Shown here in pieces: positions 1,674-18,444 of a stretch of 64,000 nt of DNA; positions within the stretch are counted from its first letter, which is position 1, and each line of letters starts with the position of its first letter. The stretch is from Pseudomonadota bacterium. GTDB taxonomy: Bacteria > Pseudomonadota > Gammaproteobacteria > Steroidobacterales > SZUA-146. The position numbers and the translations under genes are program-made. The stretch is taken from contig JBCCHD010000010.1 in assembly GCA_039028935.1 (NCBI GenBank), positions 1-64,000 on the forward strand, read 5' to 3'. Below the pieces are notes generated by a model. That model saw only the letters and a program-made list of their open reading frames with translations, made no database searches and was not told the origin of the DNA.

Positions 1674-2870
1674 ATGACTCGGCCACGCGTACTCATTATT
1701 GATGACGATCCCGATCTGTCCGCGTTTATGCACGCGGTTGTGTCGGACATGGGGGGCGACGCGCTGGTGTGTGACGACCCCGCTCAGTTGGACCGCGTCT
1801 GGCGCGACGATCTAAGCGTCATTCTGCTCGACATCGTGATGCCCAATATGGACGGTATTGAAGTGCTTCGCCTGTTGGCCGAGCGTCGTTGCCGGGCGGG
1901 AGTAATTATTGTCAGCGGCAGTGATAACAAGATATTAAACGCCGCCGAACAACTCGCCCATGATCGCGAATTGAACATTGTCGGCAGCCTGAAAAAACCG
2001 TTCGTACCTGAAAACCTCGTGGCGCTGTTGGCCAAAGCGCGTCTGAGCGCCACGCGTCGACGCCTGCACCGCCACCCACTGGACAACACCGAAGCACGCA
2101 TCCCAGGCCACGACGAACTGGTCGTGATGTTTCAGCCGAAGATCGATCTGGAGACCATGGACTTTACCAGCGTTGAGGCGTTGGTCCGATGGCAGCATCC
2201 AACGAAAGGCCTGCTGGCACCGGGGTTCTTTATTCCAGCAGCAGAAGAAAGCGGTCAAATCGACGCCCTGACCGATCGCATAATCCGCCGGACTCTTGAA
2301 CAGTGCAATCAATGGATGAAGCAAGATCTGATTGTGAACACATCGATCAACATCTCGACGCGCACGCTCGGCGATGTCACGTTCCCTGATCGATTGGAAG
2401 ATCTGGTCACGTGCTACCGCATTTCGCCAGCACAGATCACCCTTGAAATTACCGAGTCGTGGTTGAGCAGCGATCCGACCAACTGCTTAGATTCCCTTAC
2501 ACGACTCTCGCTCAAGGGCTTTCGGCTCTCGATCGACGACTTCGGCACAGGCTACTCCTCCATTTCGCAGCTCTCGCGCATTCCGTTCAGTGAACTGAAA
2601 ATCGATCGATCGTTCATCAAACACGCGCCGGTTAATGGGCAAGCACGACGGATTCTCGAGTCGAGCGTTGAACTTGGCCATCATCTGGATATGAAAGTGA
2701 TCGCCGAAGGCGTGGAAACGCAAGAACAGTGGAATGCGGTCAAAGCAGCGCGCTGCGATGAGTGTCAGGGCTTTTTCATCGCTCGACCGTTGCCGGCCGG
2801 CAGCACTCCGGCCTGGCTGGCGCGATGGCGAAACATGCAGCAAGCCGGTCGTACGCACGCCCCGGCCTGA
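1674..2870 (+). CDS. Response regulator with EAL output (RocR-like phosphodiesterase)
   Basis: 398 residues from the ATG at 1674, chosen because the receiver domain begins directly there (RVLIIDDDPD). An upstream in-frame ATG at 1635 would only add a non-conserved leader. The receiver is intact: acidic pocket DDD, acceptor Asp in LLDIVMP, and the Lys of LKKPF. The EAL domain (about 140-390) has EALVRW, NIS, EITES, DDFGTG, KID, EGVE and CQGFF, which are all the residues needed for metal and c-di-GMP binding. It is therefore expected to be a phosphorylation-controlled c-di-GMP phosphodiesterase. Its histidine kinase is not adjacent. Similarity to the gene at 320-1570 over the full length indicates tandem duplication. 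Confidence 0.92.
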   Translation: MTRPRVLIIDDDPDLSAFMHAVVSDMGGDALVCDDPAQLDRVWRDDLSVILLDIVMPNMDGIEVLRLLAERRCRAGVIIVSGSDNKILNAAEQLAHDRELNIVGSLKKPFVPENLVALLAKARLSATRRRLHRHPLDNTEARIPGHDELVVMFQPKIDLETMDFTSVEALVRWQHPTKGLLAPGFFIPAAEESGQIDALTDRIIRRTLEQCNQWMKQDLIVNTSINISTRTLGDVTFPDRLEDLVTCYRISPAQITLEITESWLSSDPTNCLDSLTRLSLKGFRLSIDDFGTGYSSISQLSRIPFSELKIDRSFIKHAPVNGQARRILESSVELGHHLDMKVIAEGVETQEQWNAVKAARCDECQGFFIARPLPAGSTPAWLARWRNMQQAGRTHAPA

Positions 2871-3229
2871 TCACGCCTAACCATCGCGAACGCCGGAATT
2901 CGACGAGGCCGACACTCACTGGATGACCGCACACCCTATCCCGCGCCTGGGGCAGGGCGACACACAGCGTTAGGCCGCGCCGCAACGCGCGCCGCCGAAG
3001 GTGTACAACGTTGGTCGTGTGGCCGACACGCACGACTCAGACGGATGGACACCCGAGCGCTAGGTTGGCTGCCCGCCAAACACGCACAACACGCAGGCAT
3101 TGCCGTTTAAGCCAGCAAAAATGTGAACCCGGCCGTATTTCTGCAGCGACTTTGGGCTAGAATGACGGCAGTATGCGATGCGCGCCACCACACGTTCGTC
3201 GTCCGATTCAGATTTGTCCGGAGATTTCG
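2871..3229. other. Non-coding gap of 359 bases
   Basis: I see no convincing gene here on either strand. A minus-strand frame at 2776-3033 overlaps the end of the EAL gene, is arginine-rich without domain character and looks like a shadow. A TAGAAT hexamer at 3158-3163 could be the -10 element for the bactofilin gene, but no good -35 sits at the right distance. Confidence 0.5.
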
Positions 3230-3619
3230 ATGACAGACAACAAAGGTCGTCGCAGCACCGACCGCGCTAATTCACAAACAACCATCATCGGTGAAGGCGT
3301 ACACGTCGCCGGCACCATTTCCGGCACTGGCAGCTTTGTCGTTTGCGGTGTGGTCGAAAGCGATTGCGATCTGGACGGCCCGGTTACGCTCGCCAAAGAA
3401 GGCCAGTGGAAGGGCACGATTCGCGCGTCGGAGGTTGTCATCGCCGGACAAGTTGAAGGTGACGTACGCACCGACGGCATGATCGAAGTGGCCTCGACCG
3501 CGCATGTGCGGGGCAGCCTCATCGGCCGTAAAATCGCGGTCGACGAAGGCGCTGTTATCGAAGGCGAGATGCAAATGATCACCAACCCCGATGTTGTCAA
3601 GATCAAGGAAAACGCCTAG
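3230..3619 (+). CDS. Bactofilin family polymer-forming protein
   Basis: 129 residues. The start at 3230 is preferred over an in-frame ATG at 3173 because GGAG lies about 8 bases upstream and the protein then opens MTDNKGRRSTD. After a short polar tail comes the bactofilin beta-helix core: TTIIGEGVHVAGTISG, then repeated short strands ending in Gly (VVCGVVESD, VVIAGQVEGDV, HVRGSLIGRKI, AVIEGEMQM). Bactofilins are cytosolic, often membrane-associated cytoskeletal polymers that recruit cell-wall or polarity factors. There is no adjacent M23 peptidase gene, a frequent partner, so the local role cannot be read from context. Family assignment is firm; cellular role is inferred from the family. Confidence 0.9.
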   Translation: MTDNKGRRSTDRANSQTTIIGEGVHVAGTISGTGSFVVCGVVESDCDLDGPVTLAKEGQWKGTIRASEVVIAGQVEGDVRTDGMIEVASTAHVRGSLIGRKIAVDEGAVIEGEMQMITNPDVVKIKENA

Positions 3620-11159: not shown

Positions 11160-11450
11160 TTAGGAAATCGATGCCCAAATGCGCGCAACGACATACCAGA
11201 TCACGCCAATCGCACCGACAAACAATGATGTCGAGACGACCATCGGATCGAGCGCGACCCCATTGAGAGCGGAAATGTAGGTGGCCGCACCCGCCACTGC
11301 CAGCACCATCGAAAGCAGATAGTGCAAGGCGAAATTGCGGCGCGGAACATAACCCTCTGATGCCGCGCGCAGCGATTTGCCGCAGTGACGACAGGCCGAC
11401 GCCTCGCTGGAAATCTGCTTGCGACAACGGGAGCATGCGATCAGAGCCAT
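11160..11450 (-). CDS. Zinc-ribbon protein with two transmembrane segments
   Basis: 96 residues from the ATG at 11450, preceded by AGGA at good spacing; an in-frame ATG at 11510 is less likely. The N-terminus MALIACSRCRKQISSEASAC followed by RHCGKSL contains two CxxC pairs, a zinc-ribbon typical of small membrane proteins. Two hydrophobic helices follow (about residues 45-65 and 72-92, ending in the Trp-rich IWYVVARIW). Function unknown; small zinc-ribbon/TM proteins of this sort are common and often unannotated. It would be first in a short minus-strand unit with the lipoprotein and the carboxypeptidase. Confidence 0.7.
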   Translation of the reverse strand: MALIACSRCRKQISSEASACRHCGKSLRAASEGYVPRRNFALHYLLSMVLAVAGAATYISALNGVALDPMVVSTSLFVGAIGVIWYVVARIWASIS

Positions 11451-11592
11451 GAGTGAAATCCTGCCGTGGTAATCGTCAGAAACCATATCACGATCGCGCA
11501 CGGAACCCACGTCGCTGCGGCAAGTCGCTCTCTTGTCACGCTGATGCGCGGATAAGGTCCCTCACGCCACGTGAATTTGGTAACCTTCACGC

Positions 11593-13597: not shown

Positions 13598-13689
13598 TCG
13601 GTGGTCCTCGTCAGCGACTGTTTACAGGAATATACAATTAAGCACCGTTTAAACCCATGAACATTTACACTTTTGTATCGTCAACCCCC

Positions 13690-13695
13690 TATAAT
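13690..13695 (+). promoter_or_regulatory. Candidate -10 element for the 13.8-18.4 kb cluster
   Basis: A perfect TATAAT hexamer lies about 115 bases before the first small gene of the cluster. No good -35 is at 16-18 bases; TTTACA at 13664-13669 would need a 20-base spacer. The five C residues directly before it give a CCCC-TATA pattern that loosely recalls heat-shock sigma factor -10 regions, but a matching -35 is not clear. Confidence 0.4.
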
Positions 13696-13810: not shown

Positions 13811-13945
13811 ATGAATCCATCGATAAAACGCTTGGTCGGCGCGCTTTTGCTGATCGGCACGCTCGGTGTGTCATCGGTTATGGCGTTAAACGCCAATGCC
13901 GAGACGCCTTCCGGCGCCGACTATCAGGATGCGCCGCGTGGCTGA
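13811..13945 (+). CDS. 44-residue membrane or secreted micropeptide
   Basis: A short gene from ATG 13811 to TGA 13943-13945. The product begins MNPSIKRLVGALLLIGTLGV and continues SSVMALNANA, a positively charged N-end and hydrophobic core with an Ala-x-Ala site, then a short polar tail ending DAPRG. It reads as a signal peptide or single membrane helix. Its 3' end overlaps the start of the XpaC-like gene (candidate starts 13929 ATG or 13938 GTG), which suggests translational coupling. No family recognised. It could be a genuine small subunit of the following cluster or a leader peptide. Confidence 0.5.
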   Translation: MNPSIKRLVGALLLIGTLGVSSVMALNANAETPSGADYQDAPRG

Positions 13946-14774
13946 GCCCTATACACGAGAAACAGCGGGCTACTGGCGTTCACAGGGCGTGCTGCTGTTT
14001 GTGCTGCCATTGCCCTTGCTGTGGGTGGTGGTTACCGCGATTGCCAGCGGCGCCACCGATCGCTTGATCACCGCCGTCGTGGCGCTCGGTCTTTGCTGGT
14101 TAGGGGCCATGCTCAATCGCAGCGGACTACAGGCCGAGGCCGAATTTCGACGCCGTAAAATTGCAACAGCACCCGCGACACCGCGCAAAACGCTCGGCGC
14201 AATATTGATCGCTGCCGGCACGTTTTTGACCGCCGCGTTTTTGGTGGGCAATGGTTTCACCGTAGGGGCAATCGCAGGCGCGCTCGCGGGTCTTGGCTCG
14301 ATCATGCACTACGGCACCGATCCGCGTGGCGATAAGGGGGTCGCAAAAGCGACTCATGGCTACACGACCGAAGAAATTGTCGACGCGTTGAGTAGCGCGC
14401 AACGCAAGATCGAGGCCATTGAACTGGCCAGTCGCGGTATCCCAAACTCCGAGCTTGGGCAGCGGTTGCATCGCATTACCGACAAGGCACGAGAGATCAT
14501 TGGTGTGATTGAAGACGACCCCGGTGATCTACGCCGGGCACGCAAATTTCTCAATGTGTATCTGGATGGCGCAGTGAAAGTGACCGAGGGATACGCGCGC
14601 AGCCACGAAAACGACACCGATGGCATGCTCGAAACCAATTTCCGCAACGTGCTCGACACCATCGAAAGCACCTTTGCCGAACAAAAGGAAAAACTGCTGC
14701 AAGACGATATTTTTGATCTCGATGTTCAAATTGAAGTGCTGAAAACGCAGCTTGAAAAAGAAGGAGTGGGCTAG
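13929..14774 (+). CDS. XpaC-like membrane protein (5-bromo-4-chloroindolyl phosphate hydrolysis family)
   Basis: 281 residues from ATG 13929; a GTG at 13938 has better-spaced AGGA (8 bases) and may be the real start. Four hydrophobic helices occupy the first ~140 residues (LLFVLPLPLLWVVV; LITAVVALGLCWLGAML; TLGAILIAAGTFLTAAFLV; GFTVGAIAGALAGLGS). A cytosolic helical and coiled-coil C-terminal half follows with IVDALSSAQRKIEAIELASR, the part most characteristic of XpaC proteins. The historical name refers to a Bacillus phenotype; the biochemical role is unknown. XpaC is often found directly before TelA, as here (47 bases apart), so it is probably a membrane partner of TelA. Confidence 0.8.
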   Translation: MRRVAEPYTRETAGYWRSQGVLLFVLPLPLLWVVVTAIASGATDRLITAVVALGLCWLGAMLNRSGLQAEAEFRRRKIATAPATPRKTLGAILIAAGTFLTAAFLVGNGFTVGAIAGALAGLGSIMHYGTDPRGDKGVAKATHGYTTEEIVDALSSAQRKIEAIELASRGIPNSELGQRLHRITDKAREIIGVIEDDPGDLRRARKFLNVYLDGAVKVTEGYARSHENDTDGMLETNFRNVLDTIESTFAEQKEKLLQDDIFDLDVQIEVLKTQLEKEGVG

Positions 14775-14821
14775 CCGCATCGCCCGCCCACCGTCACAAC
14801 GAAGCAATATGGAGTACACAC

Positions 14822-15973
14822 ATGTCTAACCAAAGCGATTCCAGTGTTGATCAAACCGCAACCACTATGGTCGGTGGCGACCTGCACGTAGCCGCTGCCA
14901 ACCTACCAGAGCTGAAGGACGCGATGGTGGTCTATGAGTCGGCCGCGCCGGAAGAGCGTGCCAAAATCGAAGAGCTAATGGCCAGCATCAATCTGGCGGA
15001 CACCAACTCCATCATTTTCTTTGGCACCAAAGCCCAAGAAAACCTCACAACCGTGTCCGATAACATGCTCGAGGGCGTCAAAAACAAAGACCTCGGTGCA
15101 GCGGGCGATTCGCTGAGTGACATGGTCGCGACACTGCGTGGGTTTGATGCGGATGGCCTTGAAAAACCCGGCTTCTTCGCGCGTCTTTTTGGCCGCGCCA
15201 AACCGATCGTCAAGTTTTTACAGCGTTACGAAGACGTGCGCAAACAGATCGATAAAATCAGCAACGAGCTGGACTCCCATAAAACCAAACTGCTCACCGA
15301 CATCACATCGCTCGACCGACTGTACGAAGCCAACCTGCAGTACTTTCACGATTTAGAACTGTACATCGCTGCAGGCGATGAAAAATTGCGCCTGCTTGAC
15401 GAAGAGGTCATTCCCGAACTCGATCGTGCAGCGCAGGCCACCGACGATGTCATCAAAGCCCAGGAGTTGCGCGACCTGCGAAGTGCACGGGATGATCTTG
15501 AGCGTCGGGTTCACGACCTCAAACTCACGCGCCAAGTCACGATGCAGAGTCTACCGAGCATTCGCTTAGTGCAAGAAAATGACAAGGGCCTGGTGACTAA
15601 GATAAATAGCACCATGGCCAACACGATTCCGCTGTGGCAAACGCAGCTTGCGACATCGGTAACGATCGCGCGCTCGCACGCCGCGGCCAAGTCCGTCAAG
15701 GCGGCTTCTGACCTTACTAACGAACTGCTTGAGGAAAACGCCGAGGCGCTTAAAACCGCCAACGCTGAGGTTCGCGCACAAATCGAGCGCGGCGTATTCG
15801 ATCTCGAAAGCGTGAAGAAAGCGAATCAGTCGCTCATCGACACCATCGAAGAAAGCCTGCAAATTGCCGACGAAGGCAAGCGCCGCCGTGCAGAGGCTGT
15901 CGTGCAGCTTCAAGAGATGGAAAACAATCTCAAGGAAACGCTGGCAGCTGCGAGCGCCCGGGCTAACGCGTAA
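14822..15973 (+). CDS. telA: TelA/KlaA toxic anion resistance family protein
   Basis: 383 residues preceded by GGAG 8-9 bases before the ATG. The family is recognisable from the PIVKFLQRYEDVRKQIDKI segment, the long helices LTDITSLDRLYEANLQYFHD and LYIAAGDEKL, and the highly conserved NDKGLVTKINSTMANTIPLW and LATSVTIAR region, ending in extended coiled coil. TelA proteins are linked to tellurite, bacteriocin and phage resistance in plasmids and to cell-envelope stress in Gram-positives; the mechanism is unresolved. No transmembrane segment is evident, so membrane association would depend on XpaC or the SPFH protein in the same run. Confidence 0.93.
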   Translation: MSNQSDSSVDQTATTMVGGDLHVAAANLPELKDAMVVYESAAPEERAKIEELMASINLADTNSIIFFGTKAQENLTTVSDNMLEGVKNKDLGAAGDSLSDMVATLRGFDADGLEKPGFFARLFGRAKPIVKFLQRYEDVRKQIDKISNELDSHKTKLLTDITSLDRLYEANLQYFHDLELYIAAGDEKLRLLDEEVIPELDRAAQATDDVIKAQELRDLRSARDDLERRVHDLKLTRQVTMQSLPSIRLVQENDKGLVTKINSTMANTIPLWQTQLATSVTIARSHAAAKSVKAASDLTNELLEENAEALKTANAEVRAQIERGVFDLESVKKANQSLIDTIEESLQIADEGKRRRAEAVVQLQEMENNLKETLAAASARANA

Positions 15974-16030
15974 GCGCATGCAGTCATCACACGAACCGGC
16001 GAACCGAATTAACGAACAGGAGCACGACTG

Positions 16031-17134
16031 ATGGGATTTTGGGAAAAATTGTTTGGCGAATTTGTTGATGTCATTGAGTGGACCGATGACTCCGCCAACA
16101 CGATGGTGTATCGCTTTGAGCGCTACGGCAACGAAATCAAGTATGGCGCCGCTCTCACTGTGCGCGAGTCGCAGGTTGCGGTGTTGGTTAATGAGGGAAA
16201 AATTGCCGATGTCTTCCAGCCTGGCATGTACAAACTCGAAACCAACAATATGCCGGTGCTCTCCACGCTGCAGGGCTGGCCGCACGGATTCGAAAGCCCG
16301 TTCAAGGCCGAGGTGTATTTTTTTAACACCAAACGCTTTATCGATCTCAAATGGGGCACCAAAAATCCGATCATGCTGCGCGACAAGGAGTTTGATGTTG
16401 TGCGTTTGCGCGCGTTTGGCACGTACGAAATTCGCGTGCTCGATGCGGTCGCGTTTTTGCGCGAAGTAGTGGGCACCGACGGTCACTACACCACCAATGA
16501 AATCACCAATCAATTGCGCAATCTGATCCTCTCGCGGTTTGCCAACGTACTGGGTGAATCCGACATACCCGTTCTTGACCTGGCGGCAAACTACGACGAC
16601 TTGAGCACGTTCGTGACAGCCAAAATTTCACCGGAGTTTAAGGAATATGGACTGACGCTCACGCGAATGCTGGTGGAGAATATTTCACTGCCGCCCGAGG
16701 TCGAAAAGGCGCTCGACAAACGGACAAGCATGGGCGCGATCGGTGGCCTACGCGACTATGCAGACTTCCAGGCAGCCGAAGCCATGACGCAAGCGGCCTC
16801 CAATCCAGGAGGCGGTGCCTCCGATGGCGTTGGACTCGGCATGGGTATCGCGATTGCGACCCGCATGAGCGAGTCACTTGGCGCGGCCGGCAGCGGCCAT
16901 CCGGCTGGCCCACCGCGCATTCCGACGGAAGCGCGGTTTTACGTGGCCGTCAATGGCCATCAAACCGGTCCGTATACGCTGGTGGAAATGAACGCCAAAA
17001 TCGCCGGCGGCGAAGTGAAACCGGAAACGCTCACTTGGACACAGGGTGAGAAAGATTGGCAGCCCGCAGCCAAGCTGACTGAATTAGCCACATTGTTTGA
17101 CCACCAACCGCCACCGGTGCCGACGTCGTCCTAA
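16031..17134 (+). CDS. SPFH-domain protein with C-terminal GYF_2 domain (YdjI-like)
   Basis: 367 residues, with AGGAG upstream of the ATG. The N-terminal two thirds is an SPFH/band-7 variant of the YdjI or 'virion core' type: opening MGFWEKLFGEFVDVIEW, then VAVLVNEGKIADVFQPGMY, EVYFFNTKRFIDLKWGT and FGTYEIRV. A Gly/Ala-rich linker (about 255-290) follows. The last ~65 residues form a GYF_2 domain: FYVAVNGHQTGPYTLVEM and LTWTQGEKDWQPA. SPFH proteins form membrane-microdomain scaffolds; GYF_2 domains bind proline-rich segments. In Bacillus the YdjI homologue works with a PspA-type protein and a zinc-ribbon partner; the next gene here supplies a similar zinc-ribbon protein. Confidence 0.9.
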   Translation: MGFWEKLFGEFVDVIEWTDDSANTMVYRFERYGNEIKYGAALTVRESQVAVLVNEGKIADVFQPGMYKLETNNMPVLSTLQGWPHGFESPFKAEVYFFNTKRFIDLKWGTKNPIMLRDKEFDVVRLRAFGTYEIRVLDAVAFLREVVGTDGHYTTNEITNQLRNLILSRFANVLGESDIPVLDLAANYDDLSTFVTAKISPEFKEYGLTLTRMLVENISLPPEVEKALDKRTSMGAIGGLRDYADFQAAEAMTQAASNPGGGASDGVGLGMGIAIATRMSESLGAAGSGHPAGPPRIPTEARFYVAVNGHQTGPYTLVEMNAKIAGGEVKPETLTWTQGEKDWQPAAKLTELATLFDHQPPPVPTSS

Positions 17135-17157
17135 TCTATCGCCCTAAGGATTGACGC

Positions 17158-18357
17158 ATGGCTGCGTGGCGCCGAAGTGAATCTGAAACGGCCCAGCCTC
17201 CGGCGCGGGTCCGTTCCGCTCAGCGCGCGGAAGCGCCGCGCCAGTTTCCGTGCGAGCAATGCGGCGCGCTCGTCACGTTTGAGCCGGGATCTAACGAGCT
17301 GGTGTGCGATTACTGCTCGCATCGAACACCGATAACACGCGCCGAAGGGCTGGTACGCGAGTACGATCTAAATGAAGCACTGCGTTGGCTCGAGACCGCA
17401 GGACCAGCGAACGAGCGACCGTCTACGCAGTGCGACTCGTGCGCCGCCGAGTTCGATTTTGATCGTCACGTGCACTCCGGCGAGTGCCCGTTCTGCGGCA
17501 CGCCGATTGTGATTGGCACCGGAAGCGACAAACACATCAAGCCGCGATCGCTGCTGCCTTTTCATATCACCGAGCATCAAGCACAGGAACAGTTTCGACG
17601 CTGGCTAAAAGGCCTGTGGTTTGCACCGAGTAAAATCAAGCGACATGCTCGACAAGAAGCCTCACTCAATGGCGTGTACGTCCCGTACTGGACATACGAC
17701 AGCCAGACCCACACTCAGTATGTAGGCGAACGAGGCGATGCCTATATGGTGCCCGAATCCTACACCACCGTAGAAAATGGTCGTCGAGTACGCCGCACTC
17801 GCATGGTCAGAAAAGTCCGCTGGCGTCCGGTACGCGGCCGGGTGAGACGCTTTTTTGATGACGTGCTGGTCGGAGCAACCCGCTCGTTGCCCCGTAAAAT
17901 CACAGACAGCCTCTTACCCTGGGACCTGGAAAATCTAACGCCGTATAACGAGAAGTACCTAAGTGGCTTTCAGAGCGAGGTCTATCAGGTCGATCTTGAT
18001 CAGGGTTTTGACGTGGCGGTCGACACCATGAACCGCCTAATCCGTCGCGACATCGCAAACGATATTGGTGGCGACCATCAACGAATCCATCATGCGGATA
18101 CACGCCATTCCAATACGACGTTTAAACACGTGCTGCTACCGGTATGGTCTGCCGGCTTTCAGTTTGGCAAAAAGACCTACCGATTCGTCGTCAACGGTCG
18201 CACAGGTAAAGTGCGCGGCGAGCGCCCCTACAGCGTGTGGAAGATTACCTTAGCGGCACTCGCCGCGATTGCGGCCATAATTGTCATAATGGCGGTAGCG
18301 GATGAATCAGGTGCACTCGATACGCTGATCAACACTGTCGAATTCGGCGGCTTCTGA
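17158..18357 (+). CDS. Double zinc-ribbon membrane protein (YdjG-like)
   Basis: 399 residues starting at ATG 17158 with AAGGAT 7 bases upstream. The first zinc ribbon is CEQCGALVTF...CDYC (about 25-46), the second CDSCAAEFDF...CPFCG (about 88-114). A mixed alpha/beta region follows with the recurrent pattern LLPFHIT, GVYVPYWTYD, YMVPESYTTV and HVLLPVWSAGF, then one transmembrane helix near the C-terminus (KITLAALAAIAAIIVIMAV). Such proteins are often mislabelled as primosomal or TFIIB-like; there is no helicase or nucleotide-binding motif. Last gene of the cluster, 23 bases after the SPFH gene, and probably its functional partner at the membrane. Confidence 0.82.
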   Translation: MAAWRRSESETAQPPARVRSAQRAEAPRQFPCEQCGALVTFEPGSNELVCDYCSHRTPITRAEGLVREYDLNEALRWLETAGPANERPSTQCDSCAAEFDFDRHVHSGECPFCGTPIVIGTGSDKHIKPRSLLPFHITEHQAQEQFRRWLKGLWFAPSKIKRHARQEASLNGVYVPYWTYDSQTHTQYVGERGDAYMVPESYTTVENGRRVRRTRMVRKVRWRPVRGRVRRFFDDVLVGATRSLPRKITDSLLPWDLENLTPYNEKYLSGFQSEVYQVDLDQGFDVAVDTMNRLIRRDIANDIGGDHQRIHHADTRHSNTTFKHVLLPVWSAGFQFGKKTYRFVVNGRTGKVRGERPYSVWKITLAALAAIAAIIVIMAVADESGALDTLINTVEFGGF

Positions 18358-18444
18358 GCCGACCCGCATACGCGGCATGGGCCGACACCTGTGCGAACTG
18401 TCACAGTCTTTTGTATCACGCATCATGTGGCTTTACATAGTCAA

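Follow-up and report, generated by a model that had tools for sequence, protein, structure and literature searches.

Is a compact set of genes for XpaC, TelA, an SPFH protein and a zinc-ribbon protein one system, and if so, what does it do? The question is raised by a five-gene operon at positions 13811-18357 of a 64,000-nucleotide stretch of DNA (here called the window; positions 1 to 64,000 of contig JBCCHD010000010.1, assembly GCA_039028935.1) from a Pseudomonadota bacterium of the order Steroidobacterales. Two of its proteins, TelA and XpaC, are widespread; their names mislead (they refer to toxic anion resistance and bromochloroindolyl phosphate hydrolysis, respectively), and neither has a settled function. 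We find that the gene set is real and conserved across many bacterial lineages, and that it is composed of two dyads, SPFH with zinc-ribbon and XpaC with TelA, headed by a micropeptide gene. We favor, with some confidence, the interpretation that this is a chromosomal envelope-stress operon, in which the two co-inherited dyads and the micropeptide would form a membrane-protection platform. The five genes are the following:

13811..13945, + strand: micropeptide gene heading the operon; 44 amino acids, one predicted transmembrane (TM) helix at about residues 8-26
13938..14774, + strand: XpaC-like protein; PF10112, E=1.2e-31; start revised to GTG 13938
14822..15973, + strand: TelA/YaaN-type protein; 383 amino acids; PF05816, E=1.5e-112
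16031..17134, + strand: SPFH-GYF protein; 367 amino acids; PF13421, E=7.8e-100, and PF14237, E=1.4e-15
17158..18357, + strand: double zinc-ribbon, tail-anchored protein of the YdjG type; 399 amino acids; eight invariant cysteines; below Pfam cut-offs

Conservation of the gene set

The SPFH alignment was used to scan 84,980 species genomes, which yielded 371 relatives, and the best 80 loci were surveyed. The genes for XpaC, TelA, the SPFH-GYF protein and the zinc-ribbon protein had identical order and strand in 62 of these 80 relatives, and TelA was found directly upstream of SPFH in 73. The loci without the full set were mostly contig ends. Among the surveyed loci are representatives of Methylococcales, Granulosicoccaceae, Leucothrix, Competibacteraceae and Campylobacterota, as well as metagenome-assembled genomes (MAGs) labelled Alphaproteobacteria. 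A Phycisphaerales locus (L056, isolate GAO1) was not counted as evidence of spread between phyla, because it is probably a mis-binned Competibacter contig: the upstream flanking gene c61 is common to L056, L040 and L063.

We also searched 274 gammaproteobacterial genomes, sampled evenly. Fifteen of them have a strong Band_7_1 match, which adjoins TelA in 13, and XpaC was located just upstream of all 21 strong TelA genes. Fisher tests, which ignore relatedness, gave p=5e-15 for the co-occurrence of SPFH and TelA and p=9e-26 for that of XpaC and TelA. Pairwise evolutionary distances of the four large proteins correlate at 0.76-0.89 (56 loci), and this fits the expectation of co-inheritance. The distribution is patchy, TelA being found in 10 of the 59 genomes searched within the order. 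Other neighboring clusters were considered as recurrent extra genes of the operon and rejected as lineage-specific synteny; these include a helicase/nuclease pair resembling AddAB, a TPMT-like methyltransferase and ABC transporters (all named by eye from sequence). The proposal of a preliminary description of the window that these genes go together is thus borne out by the neighborhood survey: the homologs co-occur, and far from rarely, with strong conservation of order and co-inheritance.

The micropeptide family

In nearly all loci an ORF (open reading frame) of mostly about 28-60 amino acids lies directly upstream of XpaC, and its products share the core MPxxxRRxxGxxLLxATxGxxSCQAL. Among 18,528 short ORFs from 1.54 Mb of fetched DNA, all matches better than E=0.029 were directly upstream of XpaC; a flagged match at locus L109 (E=0.0059) also proved to precede an XpaC gene, which tblastn had missed. 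A six-frame search of the 274 whole genomes placed 15 of 15 matches with E<=4.5e-7 upstream of XpaC, as well as two weak ones (G188, G252). A broader set of 398 Pseudomonadota genomes yielded no further strong match. Codon changes in the micropeptide are strongly synonymous (pS/pN about 7.4 over 332 non-independent pairs), with second-position changes rarest; the ratio indicates a true gene under purifying selection.

The operon therefore exposes a family of membrane micropeptides for which neither Pfam nor NCBIfam has an entry, and whose strong matches in the 274 genomes all adjoin XpaC. The micropeptide accompanies XpaC-TelA even in loci where SPFH is missing (L104-L106), which assigns it to the XpaC-TelA dyad. 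In Bacillus subtilis, no micropeptide of this family was seen between csfB and xpaC. A lipoprotein nature was considered and rejected: many members have ..SCQ.., others SLQ, SWQ or TCQ, and the one in this operon SVM, so that a lipobox is not general. The micropeptide is probably a small membrane subunit or a regulator/modulator of XpaC.

The four large proteins

By hydropathy, the XpaC-like protein has N-terminal hydrophobic segments followed by a helical domain. TelA is soluble. In its all-helical AlphaFold2 model (mean confidence score, pLDDT, 75.6), two helices of ~80 residues each (128-207 and 210-288) form a hairpin. The identity of TelA to B. subtilis YaaN is 38% over the full length, and that to plasmid KlaB ~28%.

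The SPFH (Band_7_1) protein carries a C-terminal GYF_2 domain and a proline-rich linker and tail, the latter with the motif PPPVP, and hydropathy revealed no TM or hydrophobic segment. Its only PDB sequence relative of note concerns the GYF domain, which resembles that of adventurous gliding motility protein X. The proline-rich linker and the PPPVP tail could serve as GYF ligands, offering a possible route to self-assembly.

In the zinc-ribbon protein, which matches no Pfam family at cut-off, eight cysteines (C32, C35, C50, C53, C92, C95, C110 and C113) are invariant in 61 homologs and form two CxxC...CxxC ribbons. A single C-terminal hydrophobic helix at about residues 363-381 is predicted both by hydropathy and by the AlphaFold2 model, which also has very long beta hairpins (mean pLDDT 84.5). 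An NTF2-like domain has been described for YdjG (PMC11237479). It could not be confirmed in the protein of this operon, because the fold search of the model gave no significant PDB match.

Operon layout and flanking signals

The first two genes were previously described as overlapping and the others as 23-57 bases apart. The overlap and the gaps (47 nucleotides between XpaC and TelA, 57 between TelA and SPFH, 23 between SPFH and zinc-ribbon) stand, while the start of XpaC is best moved from ATG 13896 to GTG 13938. The latter is, judging from the alignments, most likely the true start, since an ATG stands at the corresponding position of the close relative L011 and homology in L003 begins at 13938. 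The overlap with the micropeptide stop then amounts to 8 nucleotides (GTGGCTGA). Otherwise the earlier account of five same-strand genes agrees with our finding of all five ORFs on the + strand, and its identification of XpaC, TelA and an SPFH protein with GYF_2 is upheld by matches well past the Pfam cut-offs. Two flanking signals are listed below:

13664..13695, + strand: tentative candidate promoter; TTTACA at 13664-13669, TATAAT at 13690-13695, spacer 20
18389..18406, + strand: weak terminator-like stem-loop with a T-rich tail, 3' of the last gene

The candidate promoter, TTTACAC..TATAATAA, is aligned in the relative L011 too, as read from the sequence. A consensus scan found no sigma-70 site ahead of the operon, the candidate being missed because of its long spacer. 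Terminator-like sites are about equally frequent in shuffled sequence, and the one at 18389-18406 is not evidence by itself. Outside the operon, a small protein encoded at 11160-11510 on the - strand weakly matches a zinc ribbon at its N terminus and contains hydrophobic segments.

Possible function

In the interpretation favored here, the SPFH-GYF protein and the tail-anchored double zinc-ribbon protein would form a scaffold of the YdjI/YdjG type at the inner membrane. The second pair would consist of XpaC in the membrane and a cytosolic TelA/YaaN protein with its long helical hairpin; the membrane peptide of ~30 residues would be a small subunit of XpaC or would modulate it. By assembling where the inner membrane is damaged or disordered, the platform might protect it. 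TelA would act as a coiled-coil effector, either in the place that PspA has in Bacillus or alongside a PspA encoded elsewhere. It is plausible that the products form one joint machine; the physical complex, the membrane sensing and the protective function are inferred. Placing TelA and XpaC with a YdjI/YdjG-type SPFH scaffold provides a direct, testable hypothesis for both. A literature search for TelA with SPFH returned nothing relevant, and a review of SPFH proteins and PspA makes no mention of TelA, XpaC or GYF.

The functional literature on related genes points to the cell envelope. YdjI of B. subtilis influences membrane fluidity and, with YdjG and YdjH, is required for the recruitment of PspA to the membrane (PMC8581546), and the sigma-W envelope-stress regulon of this bacterium includes both xpaC-yaaN and pspA-ydjGHI (PMC3498285). 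In Lactococcus lactis, an XpaC-like gene was up 10.3-fold and telA1 up 3.4-fold in the transcriptome of work on overproduced membrane proteins and CesSR envelope stress (PMC3139573). A Listeria TelA mutant is cited in PMC12791056 as having 4-fold higher sensitivity to nisin and 2-fold higher sensitivity to tellurite. The latter value, together with the Pfam name of TelA, would suit an operon for resistance to tellurite or other toxic oxyanions. We regard this as highly improbable: in the same mutant the effect of tellurite was smaller than that of nisin, the operon has no reductase, transporter or ter genes, and the expression data from Bacillus and Lactococcus point to envelope stress.

The preliminary description had left the choice between an envelope-stress and a defence module. 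The former part finds indirect support in the above literature from Bacillus, Lactococcus and Listeria; the latter does not hold up well. An anti-phage system, that is, a membrane platform that detects infection and then either shields or kills the cell, would agree with the tie of TelA to phage and colicin resistance, and XpaC-TelA in jumbo phages could be a counter-adaptation. On a Vibrio coralliilyticus plasmid, moreover, the SPFH-zinc-ribbon dyad adjoins divergent genes whose products have a TIR domain and a TRAFs-binding domain, respectively (L093:718-8154). However, this is a single locus without TelA and XpaC, and the link of TelA to phage and colicin resistance is known from the plasmid KlaB type, whereas the TelA of this operon is nearer to chromosomal YaaN. 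No PADLOC-DB model matches any of the four large proteins or of eight proteins encoded in the flanks, and the flanking genes are metabolic or housekeeping ones, syntenic in close relatives. Anti-phage defence is thus a very unlikely role for the operon.

Several points speak against a single envelope-stress platform. All the functional literature drawn on here comes from Bacillota, and we know of no phenotype of these genes in any gammaproteobacterium. The TelA model had no PDB match at E<=0.001 in a Foldseek search, ESCRT-III folds included, and the idea of an ESCRT-III/PspA fold was dropped as unproven. In no examined locus was PspA a neighbor, and it is missing from 5 of the 13 operon-bearing genomes, which together rule it out as an obligate partner. 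The dyads also occur apart: SPFH-zinc-ribbon and XpaC-TelA are found at distant sites in Methylotuvimicrobium buryatense (L028/L098), XpaC-TelA without the SPFH dyad in several genomes (L104-L108), and SPFH-zinc-ribbon by itself on Vibrio and Tsukamurella plasmids. Neither dyad, therefore, strictly needs the other. As regards PspA, it is enriched in operon-bearing genomes (8/13 vs. 45/261, p=0.0007, relatedness ignored), and the genome studied here has a psp-like operon elsewhere (pspA with PspB- and PspC-like ORFs, L102).

The separate occurrence of the dyads, in M. buryatense and others as well as in the distinct sigma-W operons of B. subtilis, would also be expected if they were two systems that share an operon through common stress induction and form no joint complex. 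Against this stand a gene order and spacing that are kept tightly in several lineages, and the fact that XpaC-TelA is joined to other SPFH proteins too, a different one in a phage and a divergent SPFH-like GYF protein at L109. We consider two separate systems a rather unlikely explanation, though one to be kept in mind. In the phage, Sinorhizobium jumbo phage Phosso, genes for YqiJ/YuaF-like, flotillin, XpaC and TelA proteins are consecutive (L097:795-4975). The array is an independent link of XpaC-TelA to an SPFH-family protein, and it argues for a function at the membrane from which a phage can benefit as well. TelA homologs were found in 80 records of a phage collection, some of which resemble bacterial contigs. 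At L109, in a small genome, the gene directly after XpaC-TelA (2365-3255) encodes the SPFH-like protein, which is short and divergent and has a GYF-like stretch at its C terminus; no zinc-ribbon gene was detected.

Other arrangements of the dyads were also noted. A Paracoccus plasmid has the order TelA-DUF2927-SPFH-zinc-ribbon (DUF2927 gene, L094:7119-8147). In three loci that lack an adjacent XpaC-TelA pair (L024, L028 and L029; one from a MAG, the others from Methylomicrobium/Methylotuvimicrobium records), two neighboring Hsp70-like genes lie upstream of SPFH-zinc-ribbon.

Returning to the membrane-protection platform, a broader version of it can be offered tentatively. The micropeptide family may serve XpaC as a dedicated subunit or regulator of a kind not described before. 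Together with the micropeptide, XpaC-TelA may constitute a general membrane-protection device that fits different SPFH scaffolds (the YdjI type in bacteria, flotillin in a jumbo phage), a PspA-independent counterpart of the phage-shock system. This is possible, albeit doubtful at present.

Comparison with known systems

One of the known systems closest to the operon is pspA-ydjGHI of B. subtilis, in which YdjI is the SPFH protein, YdjG the double zinc ribbon and YdjH the TPM protein. Common to both are a PF13421 SPFH protein and a double zinc-ribbon protein with a TM segment, in Bacillus part of a membrane-associated stress platform (PMC8581546, PMC11237479). Unlike in Bacillus, the operon lacks pspA and a TPM gene (the TPM model matched none of the operon proteins in Pfam, and the flanking genes belong to other families), the SPFH protein bears GYF_2 where YdjI has a C-terminal zinc ribbon, and XpaC-TelA and the micropeptide are added. 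The zinc-ribbon protein matches, with E=3e-19, an Enterococcus protein encoded between SPFH and TPM-domain genes, an order equal to the ydjI-ydjG-ydjH set of Bacillus. The YdjG-type homology thus rests on this Enterococcus operon and not on B. subtilis YdjG itself. With that match, and with a PF13421 model that also has matches in B. subtilis, the earlier analogy to YdjI/YdjG has support from sequence.

XpaC (PF10112) directly upstream of TelA/YaaN (PF05816) is shared with the sigma-W-controlled xpaC-yaaN of B. subtilis and with llmg_1115/telA1 of L. lactis; Bacillus xpaC-yaaN, however, stands alone, unlike in the five-gene operon. Plasmid klaABC, whose KlaB is the TelA of RP4/RK2, has PF05816 in common with the operon but, as given above, shows low identity to its TelA. 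Flotillin-YqiJ/YuaF modules likewise have an SPFH-family membrane scaffold, and that of Phosso is then followed by XpaC-TelA, whereas the SPFH protein here is of the Band_7_1/GYF type and no YqiJ/NfeD gene is present in the operon. Two stress operons that are separate in Bacillus under one regulator thus appear here as one.

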